In this document: one piece after another, positions 2,426 to 56,345 of the stretch
Layout of the letters: each line of letters begins with the position of its first letter
How positions within the stretch are numbered: position 1 is the first letter of the stretch
NCBI GenBank assembly: GCA_964017185.1
Contig: OZ024884.1
Span: 19,996,048-20,060,047, forward strand
Source: Rugalucina vietnamica
Taxonomy: Eukaryota; Mollusca; Bivalvia; Lucinida; Lucinidae
DNA length: 64,000 bases
Direction: 5' to 3'
Program-made: the position numbers and the translations under genes
The notes under the pieces: model-generated
Database searches by the model: none
What the model was told of the DNA's origin: nothing
What the model saw: only the letters and a program-made list of their open reading frames with translations

Positions 2426-2711
2426 GTTTTTGATGAGTGTATAAAAAACACTACCTATTGCCTATGTCCGATGCACAAAGTTGAATTCTGTGCGCTGTTT
2501 TTATTAAACCTTCCTTTTCATGGCACTTAACTTCTTGCAAAATAAGATGAAAAATATATGAAATAGAGGAATTTTAATATGATGAAATACCATTCTTGAC
2601 AAGTATATCAATAGTGCGATAATGATACTAAAGCTTAATGAAATTTGTGTGTTGCCACTTTTATTCACATGTATCAGAAACACCAAACGTTTCAGATTTT
2701 CAATATTTCAG

Positions 2712-2942
2712 ACATAAACGAGTGTCTTAAGAATCCATGCCTTCATGACGGCATTTGTGAAAATACACTGGGCTCCTTCAGGTGTCTCTGTGCATCGAAC
2801 TGGATTGGCCGACAGTGCGAAATTGACGTTAACGAATGTTTAAACTTGACGAAATGTGAACACGGAGGGACATGTATCAACTATGAGGGCGGTTTCCGAT
2901 GTCAGTGTCTAGAGGGGTGGACTGGGCCAACTTGTAATATAG
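2712..2942 (+). CDS. Internal exon: two calcium-binding EGF-like domains
   Basis: The exon follows a polypyrimidine/AG acceptor (TTTCAG, ending at 2711) and ends at a GTGAGC donor (GT at 2943). It is 231 bp, symmetric phase 1-1. It encodes two EGF repeats, each with six cysteines and the Ca-binding lead D-I-N-E-C or D-V-N-E-C. Each has the C-x-N-x4-F/Y-x-C-x-C core (ENTLGSFRCLC and INYEGGFRCQC) and a closing G-x2-C. Such exons are typical of Notch-, fibrillin-, fibropellin- and fibulin-type proteins acting in adhesion, matrix or signalling; the parent gene cannot be named from two repeats. The upstream in-frame ATG at 2645 lies in the intron and is not a start. The next exon seen in the same phase is at 22422. 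Confidence 0.85.
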
Positions 2943-2985
2943 GTGAGCTCAAACATATCTTAGGGAAACTCATTTCATAATATGT

Positions 2986-3165
2986 AGATTATCGGACTCC
3001 AAATCGAGAGATCCTGGGTTCGATTCCCACTGACGGAACTGTGCATTTCTATGAGCAAAGCGTTTTGAGTCCCCACAGTACTGTTTAATACCCATGAAGC
3101 AATGGCTTAGTTTCAACCCGACTAAAAAATTGTTGACTGGTACGTTGATCCTCAATGCAAACAAA
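2986..3165 (+). mobile_element. tRNA-derived SINE, copy 1
   Basis: A pol III B-box-like GGTTCGATTCC lies at about 3017 after a tRNA-like stretch (ATCGGACTCCAAATCGA). The body ends in GTTGACTGGTACGTTGATCC and a CAATGCAAACAAA tail. The same head, body and tail recur antisense at 22777-23012. It lies only ~40 bp downstream of the EGF exon donor. Confidence 0.7.
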
Positions 3166-4207
3166 ACGCCATTTCATATTCAGTGTATTTGATTTGAAGT
3201 AATTACCAGATAAAATATCATTAGACGTTGAGGGACCAATAGACCCTGTTTCATTATGCCGGGAATTTTTGAAAGGTGTGATTTTCTGAAAACCAATCCG
3301 CTTCCCTTCAAAATGACACGTGTTAGCACTTGGGGCGTTTGGACGTTGCGGCATCTTGAATGCGTAACATACGTGACATGTTACAAATTTCATGAGAACC
3401 GCCATAAAATTAACATTTGGTCTAGTTTTATGAAGTTCAGAGCCAGCGCGTAGACTACTCTAAAGATTGACCTACTTTTAATTAAATTACAAGACAACTC
3501 GTACACCTCTCTACAACTGCAACTGCACTTTTGAGTCTAGTGGCTTGACCATCGTGTTAGTAGGATTCCGGGTCGTTTCGCCAAGGACCGTGTAAACACC
3601 CAAACAAACACCCAGGCAAACCTCCCTTTGGTTGGTAACATTTGTACCAATGGTGCAGTAGGTATCAAAAATGGGACAAATTGTTAAATTCGTGGAACTG
3701 GTGCATGACTGCATTCTATCTAAGCAACAACGGAATGAAATGAACCGACGGTATTGTGACGCTATATGGTCAGGCCTGAAAGCTTTGACCGCACCCAACC
3801 TGCCGTGTAGCCAATTACATTCTATCCAAGCCACAACGGAATGAAATGAACCGACAGTACTGTGACGGTCGATTGTCAGGTATGAATGCTTTGACCGTGC
3901 AGCGTTTTATTTCTGTTCAGTCACATGAACCACGATGAAATGGGAGTACGGTCAGATTCTTTGACATTCAAGTTTATATATGCGAAGCGTAGACCAAGCT
4001 TTTTGTAAAAGCTTATACTTGTAGGAATAGCTGTTGACGTTTGTATATCTTTGATATGACAGTACTATTTCCAATCTTCGGCATCCACAGGATCCAGTTT
4101 TTCCATGTATTTAGACCAGTGTGCTTGCAAAACGAAAACTAGGAACCTATCAGACGGATTATTCAGGGAAATCGACTCTAAAGCTGAGCTATGATAACTC
4201 CTTTTTT
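3166..4207. other. Intronic sequence with a partial tandem duplication
   Basis: I see no gene. The only structure is an imperfect direct repeat of about 85 bp at 3711-3795 and 3817-3900. The shared core is AACGGAATGAAATGAACCGAC, followed by TGTGACG and GCTTTGACCG. Confidence 0.5.
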
Positions 4208-4303
4208 AAGGAGCGTAGTAGCGCAGTCGGTAGAGGGGATGGCCCCGTATAGCTAGGCGCAGAAGCCGTAGTCTGCGGGTTCGAAACCTACCTTTGCCGA
4301 TTT
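4208..4303 (+). mobile_element. tRNA-like sequence (SINE head or tRNA pseudogene)
   Basis: A-box-like TAGCGCAGTCGG and B-box-like GGTTCGAAACC are about 60 bp apart, with a long variable region as in class II tRNAs. The acceptor ends (GGAGCGT and CTTTGCC) do not pair well. It is therefore more likely a SINE head or tRNA pseudogene than a working tRNA. Confidence 0.5.
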
Positions 4304-4484
4304 AGTACAGCTTTATCTCTCTACTTTATATATAACATCATGTTTAATAAACATCTGTTCATTACAAACATTTAAAAACAATATCAAAATAGTATGTACC
4401 TAAATAGTTGTATTCATTTAGTAAAACGTGTACAAAACTCATATTTCTCACTGGCAAAACTCTTGAAAACAAAAACCTTTCCTT

Positions 4485-5034
4485 ACTTATTCTTTTATTT
4501 TGCATTACTTGCCATAAATGCCTTGTACAAAAATTTTGAAATATTTCTTATTTTGGTTTCATCAACTGTTTTCATTTAATTGTACAATGTGTTTGAATAT
4601 GCTTCATAGGGGAACAATTCGTATCTCAAAGGCTCATATTAGGGACATTATATCATGAAATGAAATTCGTCCTCTACAACAAAAACATTTCTCTTGAGAC
4701 AAATTGGACAGTTTCTAAAACTTTTATCTATATCAAGTTGCATGCCCTTTTCAATCATCAATTCGTGAGCTTAACATCTAAAATTTGCTAGTACGCGTCT
4801 ATGTTTGTAACTTAAATCAATGGAAAGATATCTTTTAACATCGAGGAGTGTTTTTAGATTTCTATAGTGCTCTACTTTAGACTTTTCTGAGATTTTTCTA
4901 TACCAATTATGCATAAAACAATCTTTAATTCTTTAGGTCTTCCAACAGTTTGATATATCCACACATTACAAATCCATATGTGAATAGCAGTGACTTGATA
5001 TGTGTTGCCCAAGTAACTCTACCAATAGAATCTA
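4485..5034 (-). pseudogene. Decayed LINE reverse transcriptase, C-terminal part
   Basis: Reading the minus strand gives a conceptual chain resembling the C-terminal tail of bivalve LINE polymerases. It has a basic stretch, a C-P-I-C pair, then V-E-D-E-F-H-F and a final C-P, which form the usual CCHC-like end, followed by an I-x-N-I-S-K-F-L-Y-K-A-F tail. In-frame stops interrupt it at several places. Identification rests on this motif order, not on the RT core, which is absent. LINE family unassigned. Confidence 0.65.
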
Positions 5035-5483
5035 AGGACTTAAACATTTCGAATTATTGTTTAGGATACCTCTATATGTAACAAGCGGATCCAAAAATGC
5101 ATTAGTTCTCACAAAGTTCTTAGATGAAAAGAGCATTGTATTGTTATGACTAAAGTAAGGGTATCTCAATGATGAGACATGTCTTATACCGAGATTAGTT
5201 ATAAGTTCTGTCTTAGGATAAGACATGTCATAAAACGCTTCGTGAAACGAGATTGTTACTCTCAGAATGGCCAAATATTAAAAGGAAGTTTCACATTATT
5301 TATTTTACAAGTATGTTGTCTCAATTTCGACTAAAATCAATGCTGTGAAATGAAAGGGTAGTACATGTACTACTCTCGCATTATTATCAACATTTCAGTG
5401 GCAACAATAAATTTTCATATTAGCAAATCCCTGCGGAGAGTTGACTTGTCACCATAATAAAACGCCGACTATTGCGATACAAT
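5035..5483. other. No recognisable gene
   Basis: AT-rich sequence between the LINE remnant and a PLE 3' end. The antisense reading frame at 5032-5274 may be upstream RT sequence of the same LINE, but I see no motif to prove it. Confidence 0.35.
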
Positions 5484-5890
5484 GATCAGGAAATGAGGCA
5501 ATCAGAAAGAAATTCCCACTCCAAAAACTAAGGTGGGAAAAACAATCAGGACTTTATACTAAGAAAACATATTGTAATCAGAATGGGCATCCATTTTCCC
5601 AATAGGTGGCCACTCAGTTATCCATACGCAAATAAAAAATAAAAAAAATACATACATGTAAGGTGCTAACAAAACTACATAAACAATAAGAACCATCACA
5701 GAAGTATAGCCTTGGAACAATCAGTAATATAAAATTACTGGCTACCTTATCGATTTTATATGGCCATAACCTTACCATCAGCTTCTGCAGTGGTTCACAA
5801 CATTTAGCTAGTTGTTCGGTCCTCTAAATGAAATCTGTAACTAGTCAATAAATCATAAAGGATAAACATAAAAAAATCAGGATAACTACC
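5484..5890 (-). mobile_element. PLE family X, 3'-end fragment (copy X1)
   Basis: Antisense match to the 3' untranslated end of the family X element seen at 38846-39463. It has the terminal GATC-rich block, the AGTGGCCACCTATTGGGAAAA block (inverted here), the structured module and the ACTAGTTA/TTCGGTCCTC block. There is no coding sequence. It lies in the putative EGF intron. Confidence 0.75.
5690..5796 (-). ncRNA. Conserved structured RNA module, copy A
   Basis: 107 nt. The outer stem pairs GAACCACTGCAGAAG with CTTCTGTGATGGTTC (14 of 15 positions including G-U). The inner loop carries ATGGCCAT after GGTT. The hairpin is AGTAAT/ATTACT. It is the most diverged of the family X copies, yet the stems are kept. 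Function unknown. Confidence 0.6.
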
Positions 5891-7787: not shown

Positions 7788-8340
7788 TTAGCTCACCTAA
7801 CCGAAGGATCACAGGTGAGCTTATAGTATACCCATGCTCCGTCGTCCGTCGTTGTTGTCGTCGTCGTCGTCGTCGTTCACACTTTTCAAACATCTTCTCC
7901 TCTGGAACCGCTTGTCTAATGAAAGCCAAACCTCATGTAGAGCATCCTTAAGAAGGGGGAACAACAGTTTTATAAATGGTCCAGGTCACATGACCTAGAT
8001 GGCCGCCATGGCTATAAATAGCAAAAACCTTTAAAATCTTCTTCTCCAGAACCAGAAGGCCTATGATTTTGAAATTTGCCATAAAGCATCAGGCACTAGA
8101 GCTCTACAAAGTCTGTATAAATCATGACCCTGGGATGACCTTGACCTATTTTACGGCAAGGTCAATATAGGTCGCCCATGTAGTTGAATGGGGAAAATTG
8201 TTAAAATATGATTTGAGGAACAAAACTTGCAGGAAATGGGCAGATAGACAAAGTATTTATGTTTATGAAAACAATTTGTCCCCAGGGGGGTTGTCTGTCC
8301 CCGCCCAAGGGCTATATACGTGTATATGACCATAATATTG
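7788..8340 (+). repeat. Bivalve AGCTCACCT repeat, 5' part (split by LTR element 1)
   Basis: Starts with TTTTAGCTCACCT and a hairpin that re-forms AGGTGAGCTTATAGTA, then a CGT/GTC-rich tract at 7837-7879, then a ~450-bp unit. Unit landmarks are CTTCTCCAGAACCAGAAGGC, GGTCACATGACC, ATGGCCGCCATGG and ACGGCAAGGTCA. It is continuous with 14377 onward once the LTR element (TSD ATTG) is ignored. Confidence 0.75.
8337..8340. repeat. Target site duplication ATTG (5') of LTR element 1
   Basis: ATTG directly precedes the 5' LTR and recurs at 14377-14380 directly after the 3' LTR. Four base pairs suits a Ty3/gypsy-type integrase. Confidence 0.85.
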
Positions 8341-8511
8341 TGTTATGTATGACAGTTACTTGTTGAAAGATGTGCATTCAGCACTGGTAAACTTCCCAAG
8401 GGAGTCTGCCCAGGAAAGTATGATGTTATACATATGATGTTTACTTGTTGTCCTTAGCAATTATTTACTTTTAGTGTCCCAGATATTGGACATAAACAGG
8501 TTGTTTACTTC

Positions 8512-8531
8512 AGAATTTTCTAGAAATTTCA
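8512..8531 (+). promoter_or_regulatory. Heat-shock element 1 (four nGAAn units)
   Basis: The contiguous pentamers AGAAT, TTTCT, AGAAA, TTTCA alternate GAA and TTC perfectly, the canonical HSF1 trimer site. The same site is intact at 13717-13736; the 5' LTR of element 2 has TTA in place of TTC in the second unit. Confidence 0.75.
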
Positions 8532-8582
8532 AATTGTTCTTTGACGGAAAAGTCCGGAAAAATCTGGAAGAACCAAAGATGT

Positions 8583-8597
8583 AGAATCTTCTAGAAA
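8583..8597 (+). promoter_or_regulatory. Heat-shock element 2 (three units)
   Basis: Pentamers AGAAT, CTTCT, AGAAA in register. This is a perfect three-unit HSE in the LTR U3 region. Confidence 0.75.
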
Positions 8598-8627
8598 AAT
8601 CTTTTTTTTATGTCAAAAGAATATTGT

Positions 8628-8642
8628 GGAATTTTCTGGAAG
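8628..8642 (+). promoter_or_regulatory. Heat-shock element 3 (three units)
   Basis: Pentamers GGAAT, TTTCT, GGAAG in register, a perfect three-unit HSE. Confidence 0.75.
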
Positions 8643-8657
8643 GATAATGGCCTCTCT

Positions 8658-8672
8658 AGAATATTCCAGAAC
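8658..8672 (+). promoter_or_regulatory. Heat-shock element 4 (three units)
   Basis: Pentamers AGAAT, ATTCC, AGAAC in register, a perfect three-unit HSE about 85 bp upstream of the TATA box. Confidence 0.75.
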
Positions 8673-8755
8673 ATTAAATTTTGGTAAACAACTTGTTATT
8701 TTTAGTATATGATATCATAGAATTTGCTGGAAGAATCCTGAATGTTCCTCAGTGC

Positions 8756-8763
8756 TATATAAG
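8756..8763 (+). promoter_or_regulatory. LTR TATA box
   Basis: TATATAAG in the context GTGCTATATAAGGGC, conserved in the LTR copies. Transcription would start roughly 25-30 bp downstream, placing all four HSEs in U3. The start site is inferred. Confidence 0.7.
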
Positions 8764-9173
8764 GGCTACAAATTTTCATAAGGACAATCTTTGGGTACTG
8801 TTACTTTTAAGAAGTCAAAATCTATCTTACTGGAATTTAAACTTATTCTTGGATTACTTTGTGATATTCGATTCTGGATTGGGACATAGTGCTATTTTGA
8901 AACAAACTTTAATTCTTGGGATCAGAAACTGATACAGACTTGTGTTAAAAAATTCTGAGGGACATTCAGACATTCTTTAAGGGAATTAACATCTTGAAAG
9001 GTATTGAACATTCATTTTTGTTTGATTGTATATATGCTTTTGATTGTTTCACATGTAATTACTGGTTAAATCACTTCTAAATAGATTTGTTAAATTTTAA
9101 ACAAAGCTTGTTGCTGGCTAACCAACTTGTTGGTTTCCGTAATCTTCTAGTTACGCCTGGCACGTAACAGAAT

Positions 9174-9191
9174 TGGGGGCTCGTCCGGGAT
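9174..9191 (+). promoter_or_regulatory. Primer binding site, tRNA-Pro
   Basis: TGGGGGCTCGTCCGGGAT begins four bases after the LTR. It is complementary over 18 nt to the 3' end (including CCA) of animal tRNA-Pro. This is the same PBS used by several tRNA-Pro-primed retroviruses, here in a gypsy-type element. Confidence 0.88.
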
Positions 9192-9280
9192 TGAAATTTC
9201 TTGTGCACCAAATTTATTTAAAATTCTAAAGTATCTTCACTGTTTGCTGTTTAAATAGCTAAAGCCAGCAAAAAGCAACC

Positions 9281-10711
9281 ATGTCATTCAAACTAAGTGA
9301 CTTTATTGCTGCGCCTTCTCAGGAGATGTTAGATAAGGCCAAAAAGAGTGACCTCTTAGACATAGCTGATCATTATGGGTTGTCAAATATCAAGACTTCC
9401 ATGTTAAAACATGAAATTAAGAACATTTTGATTCAGTTTCTTGTTGACGAGGAAATTTTTGATTCCTCGGCTACTTCTCAGATTCTAGTCACTCAGACTG
9501 ACTTGCAGTTGAGGGAACTAGAAATCAAAAGACAAATTGAGATGGAAAAACTAAAATTTGAGTATGAAGAAAGAATAAGGTTGGCAACTTTAGAACGGGA
9601 TGAAAGAATAAGGGCAGGAAAGGCTGAAAGGGAAGAAAGAATAAGATTGGAAACTTTAGAACGGGAAGAAAGAATGCATAAACAAAAGTTAGAAATGGAA
9701 GAACGAGAGAAGGAAAAACAAAGAGAATTAGAACGAGAAAAAATTGAGTTAGAAAAAGAAAAATTAGAAAGAGAAGAAAGGCTTGAAATTGAAAAAGAAA
9801 ACTTTAAATTTGAAATTGAAGAAAAAGAAAGAGAAAGGCAGTTTCAGTTAAGAATTAAGAAAATTGAACTTAATGACAAATCAAAATCAAAATCTTTGCC
9901 TTTGGCTACTAGTACAGTATTTGATGTCACAAAACACATTCGTCTCGTTCCTCCATTTCAAGAAAAAGAGGTTGACAAATATTTCTTACATTTTGAGAAG
10001 GTGGCAGAAAACTTGAAATGGCAAAGAGAGCACTGTGCCTTGCTTTTGCAAAGTGTTGTAATTGGTAAAGCTCGAGAAATTTACACTCAGCTTTCTCTTG
10101 AGCAAAGCTCAGATTATGATACAGTAAAGGAATTTATTCTTAAGGCTTATGAGTTGGTCCCTGAAGCTTACAGGCAGAAATTTAGGGATTGTAGAAAAGA
10201 ACATGACCAGACTCATGTTGAGTTTGCTAGAACAAAAGAGCAACTATTTGATAGATGGTGCTCTTCAAAGAAAGTAGGTTCTGATCATGCAAAGCTAAGG
10301 CAGCTCATGCTTGTTGAAGAATTCAAACGGTGCATAAATTCTGATGTTAAGGCTTTCTTGAACGAAAGAGAAGTTGAAAACTTGGAAACAGCAGCACGTT
10401 TAGCTGATGACTATGCTTTGACTCATAAGGCTTCATTTATCAACAAGCCATATCCTAGGAAACCATATAACCATCAATCAAAGCAAATTACCCCTCAGTC
10501 AAAACCATATTCCCCTCAGTCCGGTCCCAAAGCCAATCCCAGTAATCCAACTGACAATTCCAGTCCAAAACCCAAATTTTCTAGTGAAAACAAAGGACAA
10601 AATCCCTTATCCCAGCCAATTTGTAATTATTGTAAGAAAACTGGCCACATTATTTCTGAATGTTTGGCACTGAAACGAAAGAAAGAAAGAGAAAATCTAG
10701 ATAGTGCTTAA
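9281..10711 (+). pseudogene. gag: Gag polyprotein of element 1 (nonsense-terminated)
   Basis: A 476-residue chain from the first ATG after the PBS (context AGCAACCATG). The N-terminal ~80 residues are followed by a long Glu/Lys/Arg coiled-coil stretch (about 85-210). Next is a capsid-like region and a Pro/Gln/Ser-rich linker with repeated SKQITPQSKPYSPQS-type segments. A CX2CX4HX4C zinc knuckle lies at about 448-461 (CNYCKKTGHIISEC). It packages element RNA in cytoplasmic particles. The stop TAA at 10709 is a single-base difference from element 2, which reads AAA there and continues into protease. The ancestral gag and pol were therefore one frame. Confidence 0.88.
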
Positions 10712-12739
10712 CCGACAGGCCTCACCTCCTTAAAGGCTAAACCACAGTCTTGTATCCAGGAAGAAAACCCTATACTGACCAGAACTTGTAAAGAGTCAGT
10801 CTCTGAGGATTCTACTTTGGAGATTTATGAACCATTCTTATCAGATGGTTTTGTGTCACTTAACAGTGACTCTGCCCAGTCTACCCCTATCAAAATCTTA
10901 CGAGATACCGGAGCTTCTCAATCCCTTATCTTGGCAGATACCTTGCCATTTTCCGAGAAGTCTTCTTCTGGGACAAGTGTCCTTATCCAGGGCGTAGAGT
11001 GTGGATTTGTTAACGTACCCCTCCATAATATCTATTTGTCCTCTGACTTAGTAACAGGTCCCGTGGCTGTAGGTATTAGACCTTATCTACCTTTTAAAGG
11101 TGTTCACTTGCTGTTAGGCAATGATTTGGCAGGAGATCAGGTTGTGGTAAACCCACTTTTGACCAGCACACCATGTGTTGATCAACCGCCTGATCCCATT
11201 GAGCAGGAAATTCCTGACCTTTACCCTTCTTGTGCTGTTACTAGGGCAATGGCTAAGAAAGCCAAATTATATGATGGGATGCAGGACATAAATTTAACTG
11301 ACACTTTGATAGGTCAGTCCTTTAATAAAGAGATTTCAACATCTCTTTCCCCTAGTCAGTCTGAAATTCAGACTGACCCTAGCAATCCAAGGTCGGGGTC
11401 AGAAAATGACCTTTCACCCTCAACGTCAAATGATCAAGGTCATGACCAGATGTCAAGGTCACAGCTTTGTAAAGAACAACACAGTGATTCTGAGATCTCG
11501 CCTTTATTTGAAAGGGCTTTAGATGAGAAAGAAACATCCCAGGTCCCTGTTTGCTATTATGTCAAAAATGGCATATTAATGCGAAAATGGCGTCCTCCAG
11601 ATGTCTCAGCAGAAGATGAGTGGACTGTTAACCACCAAATTGTGATCCCTAGGGTTTATCGCCCTGAAATCTTAAACTTGGCCCATGAAACTCCAATGTC
11701 AGGCCATTTAGGTGTAAATAAGACCTATCACAAGATCCTTAATCATTTCTACTGGCCAGGAATAAAATCTGATGTATCTCAACACTGCAAATCCTGCCAC
11801 ACTTGTCAGATGGTAGGAAAACCCAATCAGACTATTCCTAAAGCTCAGTTACAGCCCATTCCTGCCTTTGATGAACCTTTCAGCAGAGTGATTATTGATT
11901 GTGTAGGTCCCTTACCCAAAACAAAGAAAGGTTGTGAATATCTTCTGACCATAATGTGTGCTTCAACTCGCTTTCCTGAAGCTATCCCACTCAGAAATAT
12001 CAAGGCTAAAACAATAGTTAATGCACTTGTGAAGTTCTTCACATTTGTAGGCCTCCCAAAATCTATCCAGTCAGACCAGGGCTCAAATTTTATGTCAGGA
12101 ATTTTTCAGCAAGTCATGTACGAACTTGGAATTAAGCAATACAAGTCATCGGCTTACCAACCTGAAAGCCAAGGTGCCTTAGAAAGATTCCATCAGACTT
12201 TGAAAAACATGATCAGATCTTACTGCTTTGACACTGAAAAAGATTGGGATGAAGGCATACACTTGCTTCTATTTGCTGTAAGAGAATCTGTACAAGAGTC
12301 TCTGGGGTTCAGCCCATTTGAGCTTGTTTTTGGGCACACTGTACGTGGACCGTTAAAACTTCTAAAAGAGAAATTTCTCTCAGATGATGACAGTTCTTTG
12401 AACTTACTTCAGAATGTGTCTGATTTCAAAAACAGACTATCAAAGGCCTGTGATGCAGCTCAGTCCAATCTCAAATCTGCTCAAAGCAAAATGAAGATTC
12501 GTTATGATGAAAATGCTAAAGACAGAAATTTTGAACCTGGAGACAAGGTACTTGCTCTCTTGCCCATTCCTGTCAGACCTTCACAAGCTAGATATTATGG
12601 CCCGTATACTGTTGATAAAAAGTTAAGTGACGTGAATTACATTGTTAACACTCCTGGGAGGCGCAAGCAAAACAGCTATGTCACATTAATATGCTCAAGA
12701 AGTATATTGATAGGGATAGTTCTGTTATTTCATCAGTAA
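10712..12739 (+). pseudogene. pol: Protease-integrase part of Pol, element 1
   Basis: In frame with gag after the premature TAA. The aspartic protease motif D-T-G-A lies near 10905. The integrase follows, with an H-x7-H pair near 11688 and C-x2-C near 11787 forming the HHCC zinc finger. The catalytic D, D, E are near 11897, 12073 and 12182 (IIDCVG, SDQGSN, GALERFH). A GPY module (YYGPYTV) lies near 12595. Integrase precedes RT, unlike ordinary gypsy elements. A lost A in the run near 12672 shifts the frame, so the last ~20 residues of the reading are out of frame. Confidence 0.88.
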
Positions 12740-13173
12740 ATATAGTTAATTCTGTCCCTCATGAACAAAATCAAATGGCCTCTGAGGACTTCAACTTGGA
12801 GAAATCTGATCCCTCGTCATCGAAACTCCAGAATTCTGACATACTACAGAATCTTGATCAGAAACTGTCTCACCTTGATTCAGACAAAAGACTTGAACTG
12901 AAACAGTTAGTTCTCGAATATGAGCACTGATTTCCGGACATTCCATCCAGAACTGACAAAATCTATCATGATGTTGACATTATTGAAGGTTCAAAACCTG
13001 TAAAGCAACATCCTTACAGAATGAAACCTGTAAAACAGCAATATCTCAGGGAAGAAGTTCAATATTTGCTGGACAATGATTTCATTGAACCCAGCCAAAG
13101 TGAATGGAGTTCTCCTTGTATTCTTGTACCAAAGCCAGACAGGACATTTAGAATGTGCACAGACTATCGAAAA
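12691..13173 (+). pseudogene. pol: Start of the RT region, element 1 (truncated)
   Basis: The frame after the single-base loss encodes the linker and the first RT motifs (VKQQYLREEVQYLLD, LVPKPD, MCTDYRK). It has a TGA at 12928 where element 2 has TTA. RT similarity ends abruptly after the YRK motif. The fingers/palm core, including Y-I-D-D, is missing, so no polymerase can be made. Confidence 0.82.
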
Positions 13174-13286
13174 AAAAGTACAAGTAGGCAAAGATCAGGA
13201 AAAGGCGCAATCAGAAAAAGACTCCCACTCCAAAAACCAAGGTGGGAAAAAAACAAACTAACAATCAGGCACTTGTACCATGAAAA
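13174..13286 (-). mobile_element. Family X PLE 3'-terminal fragment replacing the RT/RNase H core
   Basis: AAAAGTACAAGTAGGCAAAG onward to TACCATGAAA is the reverse complement of the extreme 3' end of family X, as at 55935-56048 and 39345-39465. It joins the YRK codons of RT directly to the end of RNase H (sequence matching 47969 onward in element 2). About 0.97 kb of pol was thus deleted and filled with ~0.11 kb. Confidence 0.85.
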
Positions 13287-13400
13287 AACAAGAACCAGCG
13301 TTTACTCAGGTGGAGTCTCATGTTGCAAGAGCACAATCTTGACATCAGACATATCCGAGGAAGAGATAATATCATTCCAGACACCCTAAGCAGAGCTTAA
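13287..13400 (+). pseudogene. pol: Terminal RNase H codons, element 1
   Basis: The last ~37 codons of RNase H (HNLDIRHIRGRDNIIPDTLSR type end) are preserved as DNA but disconnected from any catalytic residues. They match 47969-48082 of element 2. Confidence 0.75.
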
Positions 13401-13536
13401 GTGCCTTTACAATGCTGATGTCCAGCTTTGTGCTGTTGTATTTGATTAGTTTTGCACAAATTTTGCTAAACATATTGTATACAATTATCCAGTATTGCAA
13501 AAGAAAGCTTTATTTTATAAAACTTTCTTTTCTTTG

Positions 13537-13548
13537 AAGAGGGGAAGT
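13537..13548 (+). promoter_or_regulatory. Polypurine tract
   Basis: GAAGAGGGGAAG directly abuts the 3' LTR, as at 48218-48229 in element 2. It is the expected plus-strand primer. Confidence 0.85.
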
Positions 13549-14376
13549 GTTATGTATGACAGTTACTTGTTAAGATGTGCATTCAGCACTGGTAAACTTC
13601 CCAAGGGAGTATGCCCAGGAAAGTATGATGTTATACATATGATGTTTACTTGTTGTCCTTAGCAATTATTTACTTTTAGTGTCCCAGATATTGGACATAA
13701 ACAGGTTGTTTACTTCAGAATTTTCTAGAAATTTCAAATTGTTCTTTGACGGAAAAGTCCGGAAAAATCTGGAAGAACCAAAGATGTAGAATCTTCTAGA
13801 AAAATCTTTTTTTTTTATGTCAAAAGAATATTGTGGAATTTTCTGGAAGGATAATGGCCTCTCTAGAATATTCCAGAACATTAAATTTTGGTAAACAACT
13901 TGTTATTTTTAGTATATGATATCATAGAATTTGCTGGAAGAATCCTGAATGTTCCTCAGTGCTATATAAGGGCTACAAATTTTCATAAGGACAATCTTTG
14001 GGTACTGTTACTATTAAGAAGTTTAAATCTATCTTACTGGAATTTAAACTTATTCTTGGATTACTTTGTGATATTCGATTCTGGATTGGGACATAGTGCT
14101 ATTTTGAAACAAACTTTAATTCTTGGGATCAGAAACTGATACAGACTTGTGTTAAAAAATTCTGAGGGACATTCAGACATTCTTTAAGGGAATTAACATC
14201 TTGAAAGGTATTGTACATTCATTTTTGTTTGATTGTATATATGCTTTTGATTGTTTCACATGTAATTACTGGTTAAATCACTTCTAAATAGATTTGTTAA
14301 ATTTTAAACAAAGCTTGTTGCTAGCTAACCAACTTGTTGGTTTCCTTAATCTTCTAGTTACGCCTGGCACGTAACA
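13549..14376 (+). repeat. 3' LTR of element 1
   Basis: 828 bp, closely matching the 5' LTR with scattered substitutions and small indels (for example GTTAAGATG for GTTGAAAGATG). It ends CTGGCACGTAACA and is followed by TSD ATTG. Confidence 0.95.
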
Positions 14377-20353: not shown

Positions 20354-20459
20354 GAACCACTGCAGAAGCTGAGGGTGAGGTTATGGCCATGTAAAACCGG
20401 TTTAAGCCCCCCAGTTTTTTATAACTGACCGTTCCAAGGCGGGACTGCTGCAGTGGTTC
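20354..20459 (+). ncRNA. Conserved structured RNA module, copy B
   Basis: The outer stem GAACCACTGCAG/CTGCAGTGGTTC is a perfect 12-bp inverted repeat. GGTT/AACC encloses the loop ATGGCCATGTAA. The hairpin is CAGTT/AACTG, which differs in sequence from the other copies while preserving pairing. Confidence 0.68.
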
Positions 20460-20701
20460 ATATTTATCCAAGTTATTCCAATAATGAGTTTTTGTTGTAT
20501 GACTTTGTGGCCACTCGAATATCTTTTGGCTGTTCACTTAGCCCTCTGCATTTTATTTGTTGAGTCCAAGCTAGCACTGTGACCACCTTACCTTCAATAG
20601 CTGCTCACCCTGCTTTCCGTTATACATGTTATACGTTGGTACCTATATTTTATATCTCTAAACATGATTTCCTTATTGCTTGTTTATATGTGTGTATATC
20701 A

Positions 20702-20810
20702 GAGCCACTGCTGAAGATAAGGGCGAGGTTATGGCCATGTAAAACCGGTTTAAGCCCGCCAGTAACTTTGTGTTACTGATCGTTCCAAGTCGATACTTCT
20801 GTGGTGGTTC
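20702..20810 (+). ncRNA. Conserved structured RNA module, copy C
   Basis: Second module in the same PLE 3' region. The outer stem is GAGCCACTGCTGAAG/CTTCTGTGGTGGTTC (14 of 15 with G-U). The inner stems are GGGC/GCCC and GGTT/AACC with loop ATGGCCATGTAA, and the hairpin is AGTAAC/GTTACT. Confidence 0.68.
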
Positions 20811-28382: not shown

Positions 28383-30181
28383 TACAAACAAATGGTAGAA
28401 TCTATAATAAATGACTCCTATTATGAAAAATTAGCAGCAGATCCTCATAAAGAAACTTCTCTAAAATACAATAAATTTTTAAACAAATATCAAAACCAGT
28501 TAACAGAAAAAGAACTTGATTATTTAAGGAATTTTGAAATCAAGTCAAGCCAATTTTACGGCCTACCAAAGATACACAAAAATGAAAGTATAAATGAAAA
28601 ATGTAAATTGTCAAATTCATCTTACGTAGAGGTGACAGATGTAGATGACTTAAAGCTTCGACAGATAGTAGCTGGCCCGTCCTGCCTTACTCATAGACTG
28701 AGTTATTGGATATTCTTCTACGACCGTTCACAAAGCATGTAAAAAGTAATTTACGTGATACAACGGACTTTCTAAATAATTTACCAAATAAAGTCCAACC
28801 AAACACATTACTTGCCTCGTTTGACATCGAGGCACTTTACTCGAATATTCCACATGATTTAGGAATACTTGCAGTGGAATATTGGCTAGAAAAAATATCC
28901 AGAAGAACTCAAAAATAGGTTTTCAAAAGATTTTGTTCTAGATGGCATAAAATTCATACTTGAGAACAATACATTTTCCTTCAACCAGGCCCACTACAAA
29001 CAGGTAAAAGGCACAGCCATGGGGACTAAGTTCGCACCTGTATTTGCGACCTTAACTATCGGGTACTTAGATGAAAAACTATATGAAATAATAGAAGGTA
29101 CTTTCGATAGTGAATTTGCCAACCATTTCATAGAATATTGGAAACGGTTTCTTGACGACTGTTTTGTACCATGGCCAAAGTCAGATCATGATCTCAAAAC
29201 CTTACACAATATTTTGAATAATTTGCACCAAGATATAAACTTTACATTGAACTACAGTAATAAAGAAATACCATTCCTAGACGTTCTGGTAAAAAACCAA
29301 AACGGTAAAATAGAAACAGATATTTTCTATAAGGAGACAGACAGCAGGCAATATTTGTTATTCTACTCCTGCCATCCTAGGCATACCAAAGTAAATATCC
29401 CATATAACCTTGCACGCCGTATCAGAACCATTGTATCTGATGACACAACCCTAAATAATCGTATGGAGGAACTAAAATGTTTCTTGAACAAACAAAAATA
29501 TCCTGGGCAAGTAATTGATTACGGCGTGAAAAGGGCCATGGCATTAAATAAAAATGTTCCGAGAAAAGTAAAGCCTAAAACAACAAAAAATATCATACAT
29601 TTTGTATCAACGCACAACCCCAAAGATCCCCAAAGGTTCAATGAAATTAGAGAAAATTTACCTATTTATGAAGAAGACGATATAATGAGCCGTTTGCTTT
29701 CAAACTACAAACTTATTAAAAGTAAAAGGCAGCCTTATAATCTCAAACGTCTTCTTACAAAGGCAAAATTCCAATCAAATGACATTCCGGAAGTGAGAAG
29801 GTGCAACAAACCGACCTGCGGCCTCTGTATTCATTTGTTGGAAGGTAGTTCAATACAGTTTAATTGTGGAATTAATTTCAAGGTCCATGAAAACATGTCA
29901 TGTAATGTAAGTAATGTTATTTATGCAATGAAATGCAGGGGCTGCGGGGAAGAATACATCGGAGAAACTGGTGGACTTTTACGGTTCATAATCAACAAAT
30001 CCGTGACCCTCGCACAAGAATGTTAAAAGTTAGTGTACACATATATATTGCAAACACTTTGACACCTAAATATCAAATAGTCCCATTTTATAAGATGTAT
30101 TCTGAAAGTATAAGCTTGCGACGGGCCAAAGAACGATATTTTATTGATACTTTGAAACCAAAACTGAACAGAGCAGCATAA
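28383..30181 (+). pseudogene. PLE polyprotein: RT plus GIY-YIG nuclease (frameshifted)
   Basis: The RT begins in the thumb-distal region (FYGLPKIHK, LKLRQIVAGP). It then shows ASFDIEALYSNIPHD (motif A), GTAMGTKFAPVFA (motif B), RFLDDCF (catalytic DD) and PFLDVLV. A linker with paired cysteines (C-N-K-P-T-C-G-L-C) leads to the nuclease start VIYAMKCRGCGEEYIGETGG. The end reads LKVSVHIYIA ... KERYFIDTLKPKLN. Frame breaks occur near 28715, near 28915 and near 29985, giving four overlapping frames. The N-terminus is missing. A known role of the family is telomeric or AT-site retrotransposition. Confidence 0.85.
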
Positions 30182-36131: not shown

Positions 36132-36336
36132 TTTGTTTCAGAAAAGAAATAACGATACAGGTATGCCGATTGTATAAACAATGCCTCTAAAGGTCTGATG
36201 CCTGTAAGACTACATTCATTAAAGTTACACCATTTGTTTCAGAAAAGAAATAACGATACAGGTATGCCGATTGTATAAACAATGCCTCTAAAGGTCTGAT
36301 GCCTGTAAGACTACATTCATTAAAGTTACACCATTT
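36132..36336. repeat. 101-bp perfect tandem duplication
   Basis: TTTGTTTCAGAAAAGAAATA to TTAAAGTTACACCATTT is present twice in succession with no difference noted. Recent duplication; each unit starts with a TTTCAG acceptor-like string. Confidence 0.88.
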
Positions 36337-36716: not shown

Positions 36717-38845
36717 TTGCATACAATACAATTTGGTTATGGTTTGGTGCATTTTAAGGGAAAAATAATCAATTTTGATTTTTTCCTGGAAAATAGTTAT
36801 TCCCTTGCTGACATTTTTATTATTATTTGTTACAAATATAACAAACCAATCAGAAATACTATTTTTAATTTCAATAAACTTGTTTCTGATCTTGATATCC
36901 ATGCTAATACTCCTAAGTCTTGAGATTGTAAAGATTCAAAATATGTTTATCAACCCGCTGGACATATTGTTACTGGAAATTTAAAAATAATTTCGGATTC
37001 TAGAATTCGCAAAATTGTTTCTAAAGGTCCGAAATATAGATTCCCTTCCTACATTAATTTCGACAAATGTAGAGAGGAGATTTCATCTGCATTAAATGAT
37101 TTCGGTAATCGATGGTGTAAACGAGAGGGTGTTGAGGATAATGCTCTTAAAGAATGGAAAAGAAGTATCTTCACTATCGTGGATAAACGTATTAAGTTTT
37201 ATTCACAAAATACTAATCTTTTACCTCCTAAACCAAAATCGTCATTTAGGCATTTGAAGCAGGGTATCCAAGAATTTCATAGAAAGTATGTCTTGGTTCC
37301 GGCAGATAAAGCCGCAAACAATGTTGTTGTCGTTTGTAGGCTTCACTACGTTAACACCTTAAAACAGGAGCTTGATGGTACCAGGGCTTATCTGGAGACA
37401 GATACTGATGAGGTGTCTGTAGTTAATGCCCACTTAAACGATTTACCTGTTAAGTTTTCTGTTTGTGTCAATGAAGGCCAAGACAAACTTCCTACGATGT
37501 ATTGGTTACCTAAGCTTCACAAAAGACCATACAAAGCTAGATTTATTGCAAATTCTAGCTCTTGTACTACCACTGAACTTTCTAAATTATTAACTTCCTG
37601 TCTTACTGCTATCAAATCTCATGTTATAAGATACTGTGAGACAGTGTATGAAACTTCAAATAAAAATTGGTTTTGGTCAATTAAAAATTCTGGTGAGGTG
37701 CTCAGTAAATTGAAGTGTAGAGGGTTCCGTGCGACAAGCTTGTCCACATATGCTTTTTCTACTCTGTATACAACATTACCACATAATCTAATTAAAGAAA
37801 AACTTCTGGATTTGATAGAGTGGACCTTCAAAAGGGCATTAAAAAACTATGGTTCTCTTTATTTGGCATGTAATGACAGAAAGGCTTTTTTCACTTCCTC
37901 TGACCAAAGTCGGTATACACTTTGGTCATGTCAGAATGTATGCGACGCCTTATCCTATCTCCTTGATAATATTTATATTAGATTTGGGACCAAGTTATAC
38001 AGACAAATTGTTGGAATTCCGATGGGTACAAATTGCGCACCTCTCGTAGCTGATTTATTTTTATACTGCTACGAAAGAGATTTCATGGATTCTCTTAACC
38101 ATGATAATCAAGCTGATGTTATCGAGGCTTTTAATTCCACATCTAGGTACCTCGATGACCTATTGAACATTGACAACCCTTATTTTGAAGGTATGGTCAA
38201 TCAAATTTATCCACCTGAACTTCAGTTGAACAAAGCCAATATCTCAGATACTGAAGCCCCCTTTTTAGATCTACATCTTTCTGTTGCAAATGGATTTGTT
38301 TCTTCTAAAATTTATGATAAGCGCGATGACTTTGATTTTGATATAAAAATTTTCCTTTTTTGGATGGTGACGTTCCTCGTCGTACTTCTTATGGTGTATA
38401 CATTTCGCAACTTATTAGGTTTGCTAGAGTCTGCAATCATGTTACAGACTTCAACGCTCGAAATAAATGTTTAACGGCAAAACTTCTCCAACAGGGCTAT
38501 CGGTATCATAAACTTCGAAAAACATTTTCTAAATTTTATCGTAGACACTATGAATTGATTTCCAAATATAATGTTGGGTTAAAGACGCTTTTAAGTGAGG
38601 GCCTTTCGGAACCTGAATTTTATGGTGACTTGGTTTACAAATTTAAGAAACTTAAAGGAATTAATGATTTTTCTTTTCAGTTCAGAAAAATCATAACACG
38701 TTACAAACGTATAGGTTATAACTTGAATGTTATGCGACAGTCTGCATGCTTAGTTTTTAACCCAATCATGGTTGATAACTATACTGCCTTCTTTAATTGC
38801 ACGCCGGTGTGTCGGGCGTCAGACTCTATGATGGCCCCGACATAA
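36717..38845 (+). pseudogene. Family X PLE-type reverse transcriptase (one stop, one frameshift)
   Basis: About 700 codons. The N-terminal part has a C-K-D-S and G-H-I-V-T-G-N-L block. Next come VLVPADKAANNVVVVC, YWLPKLHKRP, YAFSTLYTTLPHNLI (motif A region), VGIPMGTNCAPLVADLF (motif B), SRYLDDLL (catalytic YLDD) and EAPFLDLHL. The C-terminal third is Lys/Arg/Tyr-rich (YRRHYELISKYN ... FRKIITRYKRIGYN). RT motifs place it with Penelope-like RTs, but no C-terminal GIY-YIG domain is present. N-terminal-EN PLEs (Naiad/Chlamys type) are one possible home, with any nuclease lost by 5' truncation. Lesions: TGA at 36921 and a frameshift near 38352. Confidence 0.78.
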
Positions 38846-39107
38846 AGCTATTCATTTTAGTTGGTTGGGGCCGGAGCTTCTTGTCTGTTGCTTGGCCCAC
38901 CGGGGTCCAACTGGTGTTTTTCTTTTGCTCCGGAGTTCGTAGGTTATTCGGCGCCCAGGGATCTCCATCGTCGGGCAGCTTACTCAGTCTGTGAGTCCTG
39001 GTTTTTGATTCATCAGGATGTTTATCATGATTTATTTGTTTGTTCTTGATGATTCATTGACTAGTTAGAGATTCACCACGAGGACCGAATAACTAACTAA
39101 ATGTTAT

Positions 39108-39216
39108 GAACCCCTGCAGAAGTTGAGGGTGAGGTTATGGCCATGTAAAACCGGTTTAAGCCCGCCAGTAACTTTGTGTTACTGATCGTTCCAAGTCGAT
39201 ACTTCTGTGGTGGTTC
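39108..39216 (+). ncRNA. Conserved structured RNA module, copy D
   Basis: 109 nt. The 5' half resembles copy B and the 3' half copy C, as if the ~350 bp between the two modules of X2 had been lost by recombination. The outer stem pairs at 14 of 15; the loop is ATGGCCATGTAA and the hairpin AGTAAC/GTTACT. Confidence 0.68.
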
Positions 39217-39675: not shown

Positions 39676-40043
39676 ATATTTTCCTTTTTTGGATGGTGAC
39701 GTTCCTCGTCGTGCTTCTTATGGTGTATACATTTCGCAGCTTATTAGGTTTGCTAGAGTCTGCAATCATGTTACAGACTTCAACGCTCGAAATAAATGTT
39801 TAACGGCAAAACTTTTCCAACAGAGCTATCGGTATCATAAACTTCGAAAAACCTTTTCTAAATTTTATCGTAGACACTATGAATTGATTTCCAAATATAA
39901 GGTTGGGTTAAAGATGCTTTTAAGTGAGGGCCTTTCAGAACCTGAATTTTATGGTGACTTGGTTTACAAATTTAAGAAACTTAAAGGAATTAATGACTTT
40001 TCTTTTCAGTTCAGAAAAATCATAACACGTTACAGACGTATAG
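39676..40043 (+). pseudogene. Family X copy X4, 5' half (split by LTR element 2)
   Basis: The C-terminal coding part from FLDGDVPRRASYGVY to FRKIITRYRRI, interrupted at ATAG (40040-40043) by LTR element 2 and continuing at 52428. Close to X3 in sequence. A 5'-truncated insertion. Confidence 0.82.
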
Positions 40044-40876
40044 TGTTATGTATGACAGTTACTTGTTGAAAGATGTGCATTCAGTACTGGTAAACTTCCC
40101 AAGGGAGTATGCCCAGGAAAGTATGATGTTATACATATGGTGTTTACTTGTTGTCCTTAGCAATTATTTACTTTTAGTGTCCCAGATATTGGACATAAAC
40201 AGGTTGTTTACTTCAGAATTTTATAGAAATTTCAAATTGTTCTTTGACGGAAAAGTCCGGAAAAATCTAAAAAAGAACCTGGAAAGATGTAGAATCTTCT
40301 AGAAAAATCTTTTTTATGTCAAAAGAATATTGTGGAATTTTCTTGAAGGATAATGGCCTCTCTAGAATATTCCAGAACATTAAATTTTGGTAAACAACTT
40401 GTTATTTTTAGTATATGATATCATAGAATTTGCTGGAAGAATCCTGAATGTTCCTCAGTGCTATATAAGGGCTACAAATTTTCATAAGGACAATCTTTGG
40501 GTACTGTTACTATTAAGAAGTCAGAATCTATCTTATTGGAATTTAAACTTATTCTTGGATTACTTTGTGATATTCGATTCTGGATTGGGACATAGTGCTA
40601 TTTTGAAACAAACTTTAATTCTTGGGATCAGAAACTGATACAGACTTGTGTTAAAAAATTCTGAGGGACATTCAGACATTCTTTAAGGGAATTAACAGCT
40701 TGAAAGGTATTGTACATTCATTTTTTGTTTGATTGTATATATGCTTTTGATTGTTTCGCATGTAATTACTGGTTAAATCACTTCTAAATAGATTTGTTAA
40801 ATTTTAAACAAAGCTTGTTGCTGGCTAACCAACTTGTTGGTTTCCTTAATCTTCTAGTTACGCCTGGCACGTAACA
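40044..40876 (+). repeat. 5' LTR of element 2
   Basis: 833 bp with the same TG..CA ends, TATATAAG box and heat-shock elements as element 1. HSE1 is damaged (TTATAGAA for TTCTAGAA); HSE2 and HSE4 remain. Confidence 0.95.
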
Positions 40877-40880
40877 GAAT

Positions 40881-40898
40881 TGGGGGCTCGTCCGGGAT
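40881..40898 (+). promoter_or_regulatory. Primer binding site, tRNA-Pro (element 2)
   Basis: TGGGGGCTCGTCCGGGAT again follows the LTR by four bases. Confidence 0.88.
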
Positions 40899-40987
40899 TG
40901 AAATTTCTTGTGCACCAAATTTATTTAAAATTCTAAAGTATCTTCACTGTTTGCTGTTTAAATAGCTAAAGCCAGCTAAAAGCAACC

Positions 40988-46320: not shown

Positions 46321-46325
46321 TCAAA

Positions 46326-48082: not shown

Positions 48083-48217
48083 GTGCCTCTACAATGCTGA
48101 TGTCCAGCTTTGTGCTGTTGTATTTGATTAGTTTTGCACAAATTTTGCTAAACATATTGTATAAAATTATCCAGTATTGCAAAAGAAAGCTTTATTTTAT
48201 AAAACTTTCTTTTCTTT

Positions 48218-48229
48218 GAAGAGGGGAAG
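48218..48229 (+). promoter_or_regulatory. Polypurine tract of element 2
   Basis: GAAGAGGGGAAG immediately before the 3' LTR. Confidence 0.85.
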
Positions 48230-48681
48230 TGTTATGTATGACAGTTACTTGTTGAAAGATGTGCATTCAGTACTGGTAAACTTCCCAAGGGAGTATGCCC
48301 AGGAAAGTATGATGTTATACATATGATGTTTACTTGTTGTCCTTAGCAATTATTTACTTTTAGTGTCCCAGATATTGGACATAAACAGGTTGTTTACTTC
48401 AGAATTTTCTAGAAATTTCAAATTGTTCTTTGACGGAAAAGTCCGGAAAAATCTAAAAAAGAACCTGGAAAGATGTAGAATCTTCTAGAAAAATCTTTTT
48501 TATGTCAAAAGAATATTGTGGAATTTTCTGGAAGGATAATGGCCTCTCTAGAATATTCCAGAACATTAAATTTTGGTAAACAACTTGTTATTTTAGTATA
48601 TGATATCATAGAATTTGCTGGAAGAATCCTGAATGTTCCTCAGTGCTATATAAGGGCTACAAATTTTCATAAGGACAATCT
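48230..48681 (+). repeat. 3' LTR of element 2, left piece
   Basis: Includes all four HSEs and the TATA box. It breaks off at GGACAATCT where the antisense LINE begins; the LTR resumes at 52045. Confidence 0.93.
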
Positions 48682-54150: not shown

Positions 54151-55111
54151 TGTAACGTTTCAAGGACCGAGCACTGTACTTCTGTATATCTTAAGTTACG
54201 AAAACCAAGATATTTGAAACACGTACCGAGCAAGATGCTATTTAAACGACTATGTTGATATCTGAACAAGATGAGGCACACCAAGAGCACCGCCTTGGAA
54301 CGGTTAGTAATACAATTACTAGGGGGCTTAAACCGGTTTTATGGGATCCCAACCCTCGCCCTAGGTCTTGGTGTGGTTCATACTCCTTGCATTGGAAATG
54401 ATGTCTGACTATGCTGGATAATAATTCTAATGCAATACTTGATATGTGACTGAATGATTTCAAACCAAATCTACGTCCAGGAACTGATAATTCAAAACGC
54501 CATTTGCTCAACACTGGCAGGCTTGAAGCCCCTATGGTTACCGTTTCATTGGCTACCCCACTATAGCCTAAATCACAGGCTTCCCAGGAACTTCTATTTG
54601 AGACTCCAGATTGTTCCAGTGATCGAAATGATACTGTGAACAAGGTCCAGCTATCGCAATGATCTCTGTGACCAAGGCCCAGCTATCGCAATGATCTCTG
54701 CGGCCAAAGAGTCTCAAATGTTCGTTCAGCACTAGAGGATAAGAGTTATCGCAATGATCTCTCTTTATCCCAAAGCCTGAGCTCCGTGCCACGAAGCCTA
54801 TTTACTACTACATCATCAACTCTCTTCGACCTAAACTGTCCGACTGCGACTATCACTGCCTCGCTTGCTCCTTTTATACCCATCCAGTCACGTGCAATAT
54901 CCGGGTTGTTCCATTATAGCGGGAAAGTCTATTCTAGAAAATTAAGTAGGTGAATCAGGTGCGAAAGCGATTTCCTTGTAAAACACGACACACGTCGATT
55001 TTAATCGGGAAAACTGACAAAGTTGTGCGGTTTTACATGATGAATATCAAACTATGAGCTTTTAAAGAAATTTAAATAGAAACTACGATTTTAAAATGGA
55101 TATTCGTCACA
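54151..55111. mobile_element. ~0.96-kb insertion carrying a diverged structured module
   Basis: Splits X5 between TAGTTCTTGT and ACTTGTACTACC. Ends read TGTAACG and CGTCACA, an imperfect short inverted pair; CTTGT may be the duplicated target. It contains module copy E and three tandem TATCGCAATGATCTC units (54650-54765). No protein recognised. Confidence 0.55.
54273..54379 (-). ncRNA. Conserved structured RNA module, copy E (diverged)
   Basis: The outer stem CACACCAAGA/TCTTGGTGTG has replaced the CACTGCAG pair of other copies. The loop palindrome is GGGATCCC instead of ATGGCCAT. The hairpin is AGTAAT/ATTACT; core AAAACCGGTTTAAGCCC and CGTTCCAAGGCGG are kept. This is the strongest single case for selection on structure. 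Confidence 0.7.
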
Positions 55112-55934: not shown

Positions 55935-56345
55935 AAAAGGTACAAGTAGGCAAAGATCAGGAAAAGGCGCTATCAGAAAAAGATTCCCACTCCAAAAACC
56001 GAGGTGGAAAAAAAAAACAAACTAACAATCAGGTACTTATACCATGAAACATATCGTAAGTCGAATGAGCAGCTATTTTCCCAATAGGTGGCCACTCAGT
56101 TACCTTAACTTAACTAGAAATATGAAAACATACATAAGGCGCCAACAGCACAAAAATTTTAAACACCAAGACATAAAACAAAAAGAACCACCACAGAAGT
56201 ATCGACTTGGGACGATCAGTAACACAAAGTTACTAGCGGGCTTAAACCGGTTTTACAGGTACCTAACCTCACCCTCAGCTTCTGCAGTGGTTCATAACAT
56301 TTAGTTAGTTATTCGGTCCTCGTGGTGAATCTCTAACTAGTCAAT
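55935..56345 (-). mobile_element. Family X 3'-end fragment (copy X6)
   Basis: Antisense 3' end from AAAAAGGTACAAGTAGGC to the ACTAGTCAATGAATCAT block, ~410 bp, with one structured module and no coding sequence. Confidence 0.82.
56185..56293 (-). ncRNA. Conserved structured RNA module, copy F
   Basis: The outer stem pairs at 15 of 15 positions including G-U (GAACCACTGCAGAAG / CTTCTGTGGTGGTTC). The loop palindrome is AGGTACCT, a third version. The hairpin is AGTAAC/GTTACT. Confidence 0.72.

Follow-up and report, generated by a model that had tools for sequence, protein, structure and literature searches.

A probable divergent type-P5 twister with palindromes in the place of stem P1, carried by Penelope-like and non-coding LTR elements of a lucinid clam

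Penelope-like elements (PLEs) carry minimal type-I hammerheads that stand in tandem in their pLTRs, have a weak stem and may act as dimers, as summarised from Lunse 2017 and Cervera 2014, the work cited there (PMC7761336, PMC11167929). A lizard PLE hammerhead is described as cutting only when its protein was added (PMC11167929). Hammerheads are also carried by retrozymes, in LTRs in plants, whereas those of animals are non-LTR elements; the same source gives one sentence to unpublished twisters, truncated and placed 5' in RTE retrotransposons (PMC7761336). In twister, as outlined for the known structures, an L2 dinucleotide pairs with two bases bulged in L4 (T2), T1 joins L1 and L4, and P4 gains two pairs, one G-C and one U.A (PMC5408937). 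The permutations P1, P3 and P5 are already known (PMC10085705).

The window, that is, the whole 64,000-nt stretch of Rugalucina vietnamica DNA that was analysed, holds six copies of a structured RNA module. This module is probably a divergent twister of type P5 whose stem P1 would be made in trans, by palindrome pairing of two copies (a dimeric twister). The copies are as follows.

5690..5796, - strand: copy A, placed by alignment; decayed, and not among the copies given to the permissive Rfam scan
20354..20459, + strand: copy B, first putative ribozyme of the tandem B-C pair (348 nt start to start)
20702..20810, + strand: copy C, a whole type-P5 twister-like module
39108..39216, + strand: copy D, in a PLE 3' region, downstream of the PLE ORF and SECIS element
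54273..54379, - strand: copy E, inside an LTR whose element is non-coding; L1 reads GAGGG and the palindrome TGGGATCCCA
56185..56293, - strand: copy F, with L4 reading GUCCCAAG (the twister consensus letters) and palindrome 1 reading AGGTACCT

Alignments reproduced exactly the coordinates and strands given in an initial annotation, and a covariance model built from the six copies returns all of them at 98-132 bits. At E<=10 the same model gives seven further matches, five of them antisense strands of module copies (18-25 bits) and the other two scoring 9.0 and 7.9 bits. Each of the six has a better fold than its dinucleotide shuffles have on average (z -2.3 to -4.0). The decay of copy A consists of AAGG for GAGG, a 2-nt deletion in palindrome 2 and one P2 mismatch. 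Sequence comparison assigns five copies to the 3' part of a single PLE family and copy E to a separate insertion. Two kinds of element thus carry the module, and the proposal of a mobile, covarying structured RNA is supported.

Read from the sequence, the order of parts is P5 - A/U-rich - P2' - GAGG(L1) - P1 region - U^AA(L1) - P2 - L2 - P3 - P4/L4 - P5'. In copy C (+ strand) they lie as follows.

20702-20716 with 20796-20810, + strand: outer stem P5 (named P1 in the initial annotation); 91.9% of cells paired
20721..20724, + strand: P2 5' strand GGGC, pairing with 20754-20757 (GCCC); 91.9% of cells paired
20725..20728, + strand: L1 strand GAGG, putative T1 pseudoknot with CC of L4
20731..20738, + strand: palindrome 1, ATGGCCAT, proposed to pair in trans (variants outside copy C: AGGTACCT, AGGATCCT, AGGCGCCT, GGGATCCC)
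20742..20751, + strand: palindrome 2, AAACCGGTTT, proposed to be P1 formed in trans (variants outside copy C: AAATCGATTT, AAACTAGTTT)
20751..20753, + strand: U^AA, with a predicted cut at U20751/A20752, placed from twister through the Rfam model alignment
20758..20759, + strand: L2 dinucleotide GC, T2 partner of 20789-20790
20761..20777, + strand: P3 hairpin AGTAAC/GTTACT; 96.0% paired
20779..20794, + strand: P4 and L4, AUC-G-U-UCC-AA-GU-C-GAU, from the Rfam alignments; P4 88.2% paired

The initial annotation could match the module to no named ribozyme. This has to be revised: its parts follow the published anatomy of twister, and when copies B-F were compared with 4227 Rfam families in permissive E-value mode, a twister model was the best family in four of the five, at sub-threshold scores. 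Copies C (20.8 bits, E 0.073), D (20.8 bits, E 0.021) and F (17.8 bits, E 0.15) matched twister-P1, and copy E matched Twister-P5 (16.2 bits, E 0.22) as its sole match at E<=10; copy B gave no twister match at E<=10. No copy reached the gathering score (20.8 vs 67.2 for the one model, 16.2 vs 37.6 for the other). The alignments share one register, comprising UAA, P2, L2, P3 (in the P1 model), P4 and GU(U/C)CCAAG. The twister-P1 matches align well only from UAA to P4 and their 3' third does not fit, as would be expected if the order of parts were permuted. In copy E, the Twister-P5 model places GGC-GAGGG upstream of the P1 region.

The low scores leave room for a chance likeness of some unrelated RNA class to twister, since all four matches are sub-gathering (E 0.02-0.22) and copy B has none. 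We regard this as highly improbable, however, because two twister models pick out the one module family in a single register and because a descriptor based on the Rfam consensus (P2b, GAGG, UAA, P2a, T2, P4, GUYYCAA) behaves accordingly; its Y at two L4 positions was chosen after the module had been seen. This descriptor hits five places in the window, all of them module copies, and misses the decayed copy A. In 300 dinucleotide-shuffled windows it gave 5 matches, a mean of about 0.02 per window, and in a larger control of 4264 shuffled windows 17 places (mean 0.004, maximum 1 per window).

The likeness to twister (type P5, RF02684; type P1, RF03160) extends over the sequence in which the parts stand, the L1 letters UAA and GAGG(G), T2 between L2 and L4, a P4 with the extra G-C and U.A, the GU(U/C)CCAAG loop and the optional P3. 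The module differs in its sub-gathering score, its long P5 and the palindromes that replace a cis P1. It differs also in T1: in most PLE copies the first C of GUCCCAAG and the third G of GAGGG are each replaced by U, which leaves two of the three T1 pairs Watson-Crick. Across 36 distinct aligned rows, UUUAA occurs in 30, GAGG in 28 (GAGGU in 26, GAGGG in the 2 rows of the LTR family) and an L4 of GUUCCAAG in 28; GUCCCAAG is confined to copy F. The claim that the module lacks a hammerhead agrees with Rfam, which at gathering score finds none in the window and, in the window and locus L009 together, no hammerhead or other class besides SECIS_1; very small hammerheads might escape a search at this score.

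These 36 rows, condensed from 63 matches in the window and further loci, also served for covariation. P5, P2, P3 and P4 were part of the alignment model, so their pairing counts lean that way; T2, T1, a cis P1 and the palindromes lay outside it. Over the whole structure 92.5% of cells are paired, compared with 87.0% in shuffles, and 15 pairs change on both sides, compared with 7.9 (each reached by 0/500 shuffles). Slid versions of the structure pair only 31-48% of cells. In further pair types, the structure does no better than shuffles (128/500). The covariation initially reported for the outer stem and P3 thus holds on a larger set of distinct rows (P5 91.9%, P3 96.0% paired). P2 and P4 have one pair each that changes on both sides, in an alignment that was fitted to these helices. 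At the first pair of T2 (35 rows), GU occurs 13 times and CG 11 times, with 11 rows unpaired; GC/GU and CC/GG alternate, with copies B and E having CC in L2 and GG in L4. T1 (GG/CC) is 96.9% paired without any both-side change.

The three-way junction first drawn for the module missed P4 (ATCG/CGAT around the conserved GTTCCAAG). In it, P2 had been drawn as GGGY/GCCC continued by GGTT/AACC; the outer part stands at 91.9% paired, whereas the inner part shows no covariation beyond shuffles and was dropped. A second cis helix, GGCC/GGTT, proposed by an energy model, was also dropped for want of covariation. A stem P1 in cis beside the cleavage site was therefore not found with either helix, and for this reason the module is called a twister variant here rather than a plain member.

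One could still suppose a twister with a cis P1 (GGUU/AACC or GGCC/GGUU), in which the palindromes would be a kissing-loop dimerisation or packaging signal. GGTT/AACC does pair in 96.2% of cells, energy models pick cis pairings in this region, and dimerising palindromic loops occur in retroviral RNA. We consider this reading unlikely, though it deserves attention. Shuffles reach the pairing of GGTT/AACC in 161/500 cases and its covariation score in 120/500, and neither cis helix rises above them in covariation. In addition, GGUU/AACC would take the GG that T1 needs and so compete with T1, and the end of palindrome 2 falls on the predicted cleavage site, the place where P1 would be expected.

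The stretch from GAGG to UAA contains two palindromes (module columns 30-37 and 41-50), and their centres show compensatory changes: AGG-TA/CG/AT/GC-CCT in the first and AAA-CCGG/TCGA/CTAG-TTT in the second. When they are treated as self-pairing, 96.7% of cells pair and the covariation score is 0.257 vs 0.093 (both 0/500 shuffles), while 4/500 shuffles reach their number of both-side-change pairs and 43/500 their further pair types. Since neighbouring bases are unable to pair inside a single hairpin, these changes suggest pairing between molecules or between two modules. Predicted self-duplexes of nine palindromes range from -7.9 to -18.2 kcal/mol, compared with -4.2 to -6.2 kcal/mol for three versions with unpairable centres.

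The same pattern is seen throughout the genome (1.09 Gb, 47 contigs), the only one from which copies and counts were taken. The pattern TTAGGNNCCTGTAAAA has 13,987 matches, compared with 37 for its control. Among the matches listed, the first 100, which lie in a 7.8-Mb stretch at the start of contig C1, have the centres TA (48), CG (22), AT (15), GC (8), TG (4) and GT (3), every one pairable with wobbles included. Genome-wide, AGGNNCCT has 101 RR centres (4 of the 10 unpairable ones) and 178 CA centres, so that these five of ten unpairable centres account for 279/13,987. For palindrome 2, the 19-nt core pattern GTAAAANNNNTTTAAGCCC has 22,114 matches and its reversed-pattern control 3. Of 100 listed, 70 have CCGG, 19 TCGA and the remainder nine other types, with 93 pairable and 90 pairable without wobbles. 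A 3-A variant of palindrome 2 has 263 copies, and 72 of the 100 listed have palindromic centres. Recurrent centres comprise three beyond the commonest in palindrome 1 and TCGA, less so CTAG, in palindrome 2. All these counts are inflated by descent from a small number of lineages, in that related copies are not independent events.

Palindromes are generic dyad signals, and they might act in DNA, as the site of a homodimeric protein, an endonuclease target or a cruciform, with the RNA being a non-catalytic structured UTR. The preference for wobbles bears on this: TG outnumbers its mirror mismatch CA genome-wide (256 vs 178; one-sided binomial p 1e-4), a modest excess that favours an RNA-level cause and does not prove it. 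TG and GT together make up 7 of the 100 listed centres, though TG is just 256/13,987 genome-wide. A DNA-level role nevertheless appears very improbable, as each of four centre dinucleotides is frequent, a freedom that a DNA-reading protein would hardly permit, and as the surrounding RNA helices covary and bear the twister signature.

Another reading is that of a dead former twister, hitch-hiking in abundant repeats with no present function. Many copies are indeed decayed, including copy A, a copy at locus L018 and the five of seven random-locus copies that fail the strict descriptor. We hold this to be quite improbable, as the core is kept in well-conserved copies and two kinds of element retain the same module, with the ribozyme alone in common. 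Moreover, compensatory centre changes outnumber single ones: among the 100 listed copies of the 3-A variant, 42 differ from CCGG at two places, 33 of these being palindromic, and 13 differ at one.

The copies, helices, covariation, twister signature, palindromes and element context are direct observations. Under the preferred reading of a twister with P1 formed in trans, the module RNA would cut itself at UUU^AA, after the last U, and the P1 that lies directly below the cleavage site in other twisters would be replaced by the two self-complementary palindromes. The partners could be two modules in one transcript (the PLE tandem of about 348 nt, or two LTRs) or two RNAs. Identical copies made from one template can pair in this way only if they are palindromic, which would fit tandem pLTRs. 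Cutting at both modules might then release unit-length RNA from transcripts of tandem elements, a role suggested here by analogy with the one proposed for retrozyme ribozymes. Self-cleavage, dimerisation and a biological role are in this sense what we infer from the sequence.

The main host is a PLE, represented in the window by two features near copy D.

36924..38474, + strand: ORF of the PLE reverse transcriptase, upstream of copy D and preceded by an in-frame TGA codon (36921-36923)
38820..38887, + strand: SECIS element where the PLE ORF ends (Rfam RF00031, 37.4 bits vs a gathering score of 35)

A fuller example is locus L009, a 4574-bp tandem unit in which a B-C pair is followed by the ORF and then by another B-C pair. 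Its frame at 2519-5812 has TGA as its only inner stops (at 2975, 3008 and 3887) and ends with TAA at 5810, overlapped by a SECIS element at 5787-5854. With only TGA as inner in-frame stops and a SECIS element, the PLE is, on its sequence, a selenoprotein retroelement. Its N-terminal segment has a weak GIY-YIG match (E 0.006, 17.3 bits vs a cut-off of 22.6); the whole frame, read with TGA as Sec, has none at E<=1. Searches of Pfam and PDB sequences returned no RT family for the PLE RT, and the C-terminal segment and the ORF upstream of copy D are taken to be PLE RT from characteristic motifs. Naiad-type PLEs join an N-terminal GIY-YIG to a C-terminal RT, and the host is a candidate for this type. 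Craig et al. 2021 are said to describe Naiads as lacking canonical hammerheads and clam Naiads as selenoproteins.

Tandem arrangement is seen in one subfamily of this PLE. A second module lies 344-350 nt away in 10 of the 11 distinct B copies examined among 40 matches listed, the exception being at L015; no such pair was found at D, F or A or among seven random-locus copies. PLE 3' sequence adjoins six of those seven, while the copy at L018:1077 matches only in the module and a few flanking bases. In a search for homologous proteins, 2401 of 7992 scored candidates reach E<=0.001. The 120 listed include two that are named, PLE proteins from Candidatus Thiodiazotropha MAGs (80 and 83% identical), and these probably represent DNA of the lucinid clam host that was binned with the symbiont. 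A second, different PLE-like RT ORF was recognised by eye at 28890-30026, with no Pfam match passing the cut-off, and no ribozyme copy was found between 20810 and 39108.

Like the PLE hammerheads, the module is a small, putatively self-cleaving motif set in tandem in a PLE, with a stem that may need a dimer. It differs in belonging to another ribozyme class and in that the contact in trans is suggested by palindromes. If the reading is right, a different class stands at the hammerhead position of PLEs and is again apparently dimeric, which would suggest paired self-cleavage to be a requirement of PLEs rather than an accident of hammerheads.

Copy E belongs to a separate host.

54151..55111, - strand: solo LTR holding copy E (TGTGACG...GTTACA), 961 bp, inside a PLE copy; ends placed by eye

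It is flanked by a 4-bp repeat, CAAG, at 54147-54150 and 55112-55115, and has TATAAAA at 54872-54878 (placed by eye). No hammerhead reaches gathering score in this LTR, and the twister-like module is there instead. Related elements at L037 (a trimer) and L038 (a dimer) consist of an LTR of 958-967 bp, 166 or 189 bp of non-coding sequence and another LTR, with a TATA box and a GGGGGGA end; L039 is solo. After the LTR, L037 and L038 have the PBS-like TGGTGGCAGCGGTGGGAT, presumably complementary to tRNA-Leu. Dimers and trimers are common: 24 of the 40 best matches listed sit in 9 dimers and 2 trimers, at a spacing of 1.12-1.42 kb. The layout of an LTR retrozyme (a non-coding LTR, PBS, short internal stretch, PPT and LTR, in tandem multimers) is therefore present, and the element is a candidate animal LTR retrozyme. 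It resembles retrozymes in being non-coding, in the ribozyme-like module within its repeat, in the PBS/PPT-like ends of the plant forms and in its genomic dimers and trimers; it departs from them in having a twister-like module instead of a hammerhead and in being an LTR form in an animal. The RTE twisters similarly place twister in a retrotransposon, in another element class and position than here. By blastn at E 1e-8, the PLE and LTR hosts share only the module of about 118 nt.

A possible helper is a Gypsy-type element at L027 (2765-9450), which has 1022-bp LTRs and the same PBS-like letters; a 31-bp, 90% match to the retrozyme-like element spans the LTR end and PBS. The two Gypsy elements of the window were rejected as partners of the LTR family, as neither the LTR nor the internal stretch matches, and the PBS-like letters are absent from both.

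Module copies appear to be very numerous. In 200 kb of random loci, five loci held 7 sense copies of at least 39 bits, and the whole set held four weaker ones; the seven per 200 kb suggest tens of thousands genome-wide and agree with the pattern count. Two of the seven pass the strict descriptor. In bacterial/archaeal and viral sequence collections the strict pattern found 0 and 0 relatives, and a looser pattern found 4 bacterial contigs (about 2 expected by simple arithmetic) and 0 viral.

A more far-reaching reading makes the module an obligate dimer with a shared palindromic P1, cleaving only when two element copies, or both ends of a single transcript, meet, and the unrecognised ribozyme of the Naiads, a clade reported to lack hammerheads; it would also have entered an LTR retrozyme of an animal and would number tens of thousands of copies. 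We judge the chances for and against this whole to be evenly balanced. Searches of open-access literature, judged by the titles and opening lines of abstracts listed, turned up neither a dimeric twister nor a twister within a PLE or an LTR retrozyme. If the trans reading is true, it adds a new way for a twister to work, in which one stem forms only between two copies. The gain would then comprise a twister form whose P1 is intermolecular, a single genome with a very large population of ribozymes, and an LTR retrozyme of an animal that employs twister.

Some further observations concern variation in the module and its surroundings. In the copies at L030 (9779-9909) and L010 (2879-3008), a C-rich insert, some 20-25 nt long, separates UAA from L2. 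The two Gypsy elements of the window (8340-14376 and 40039-48681) are 96-99% alike in their matching parts, with rearranged insertions, and 36132-36336 is a perfect tandem duplication of 101 bp.
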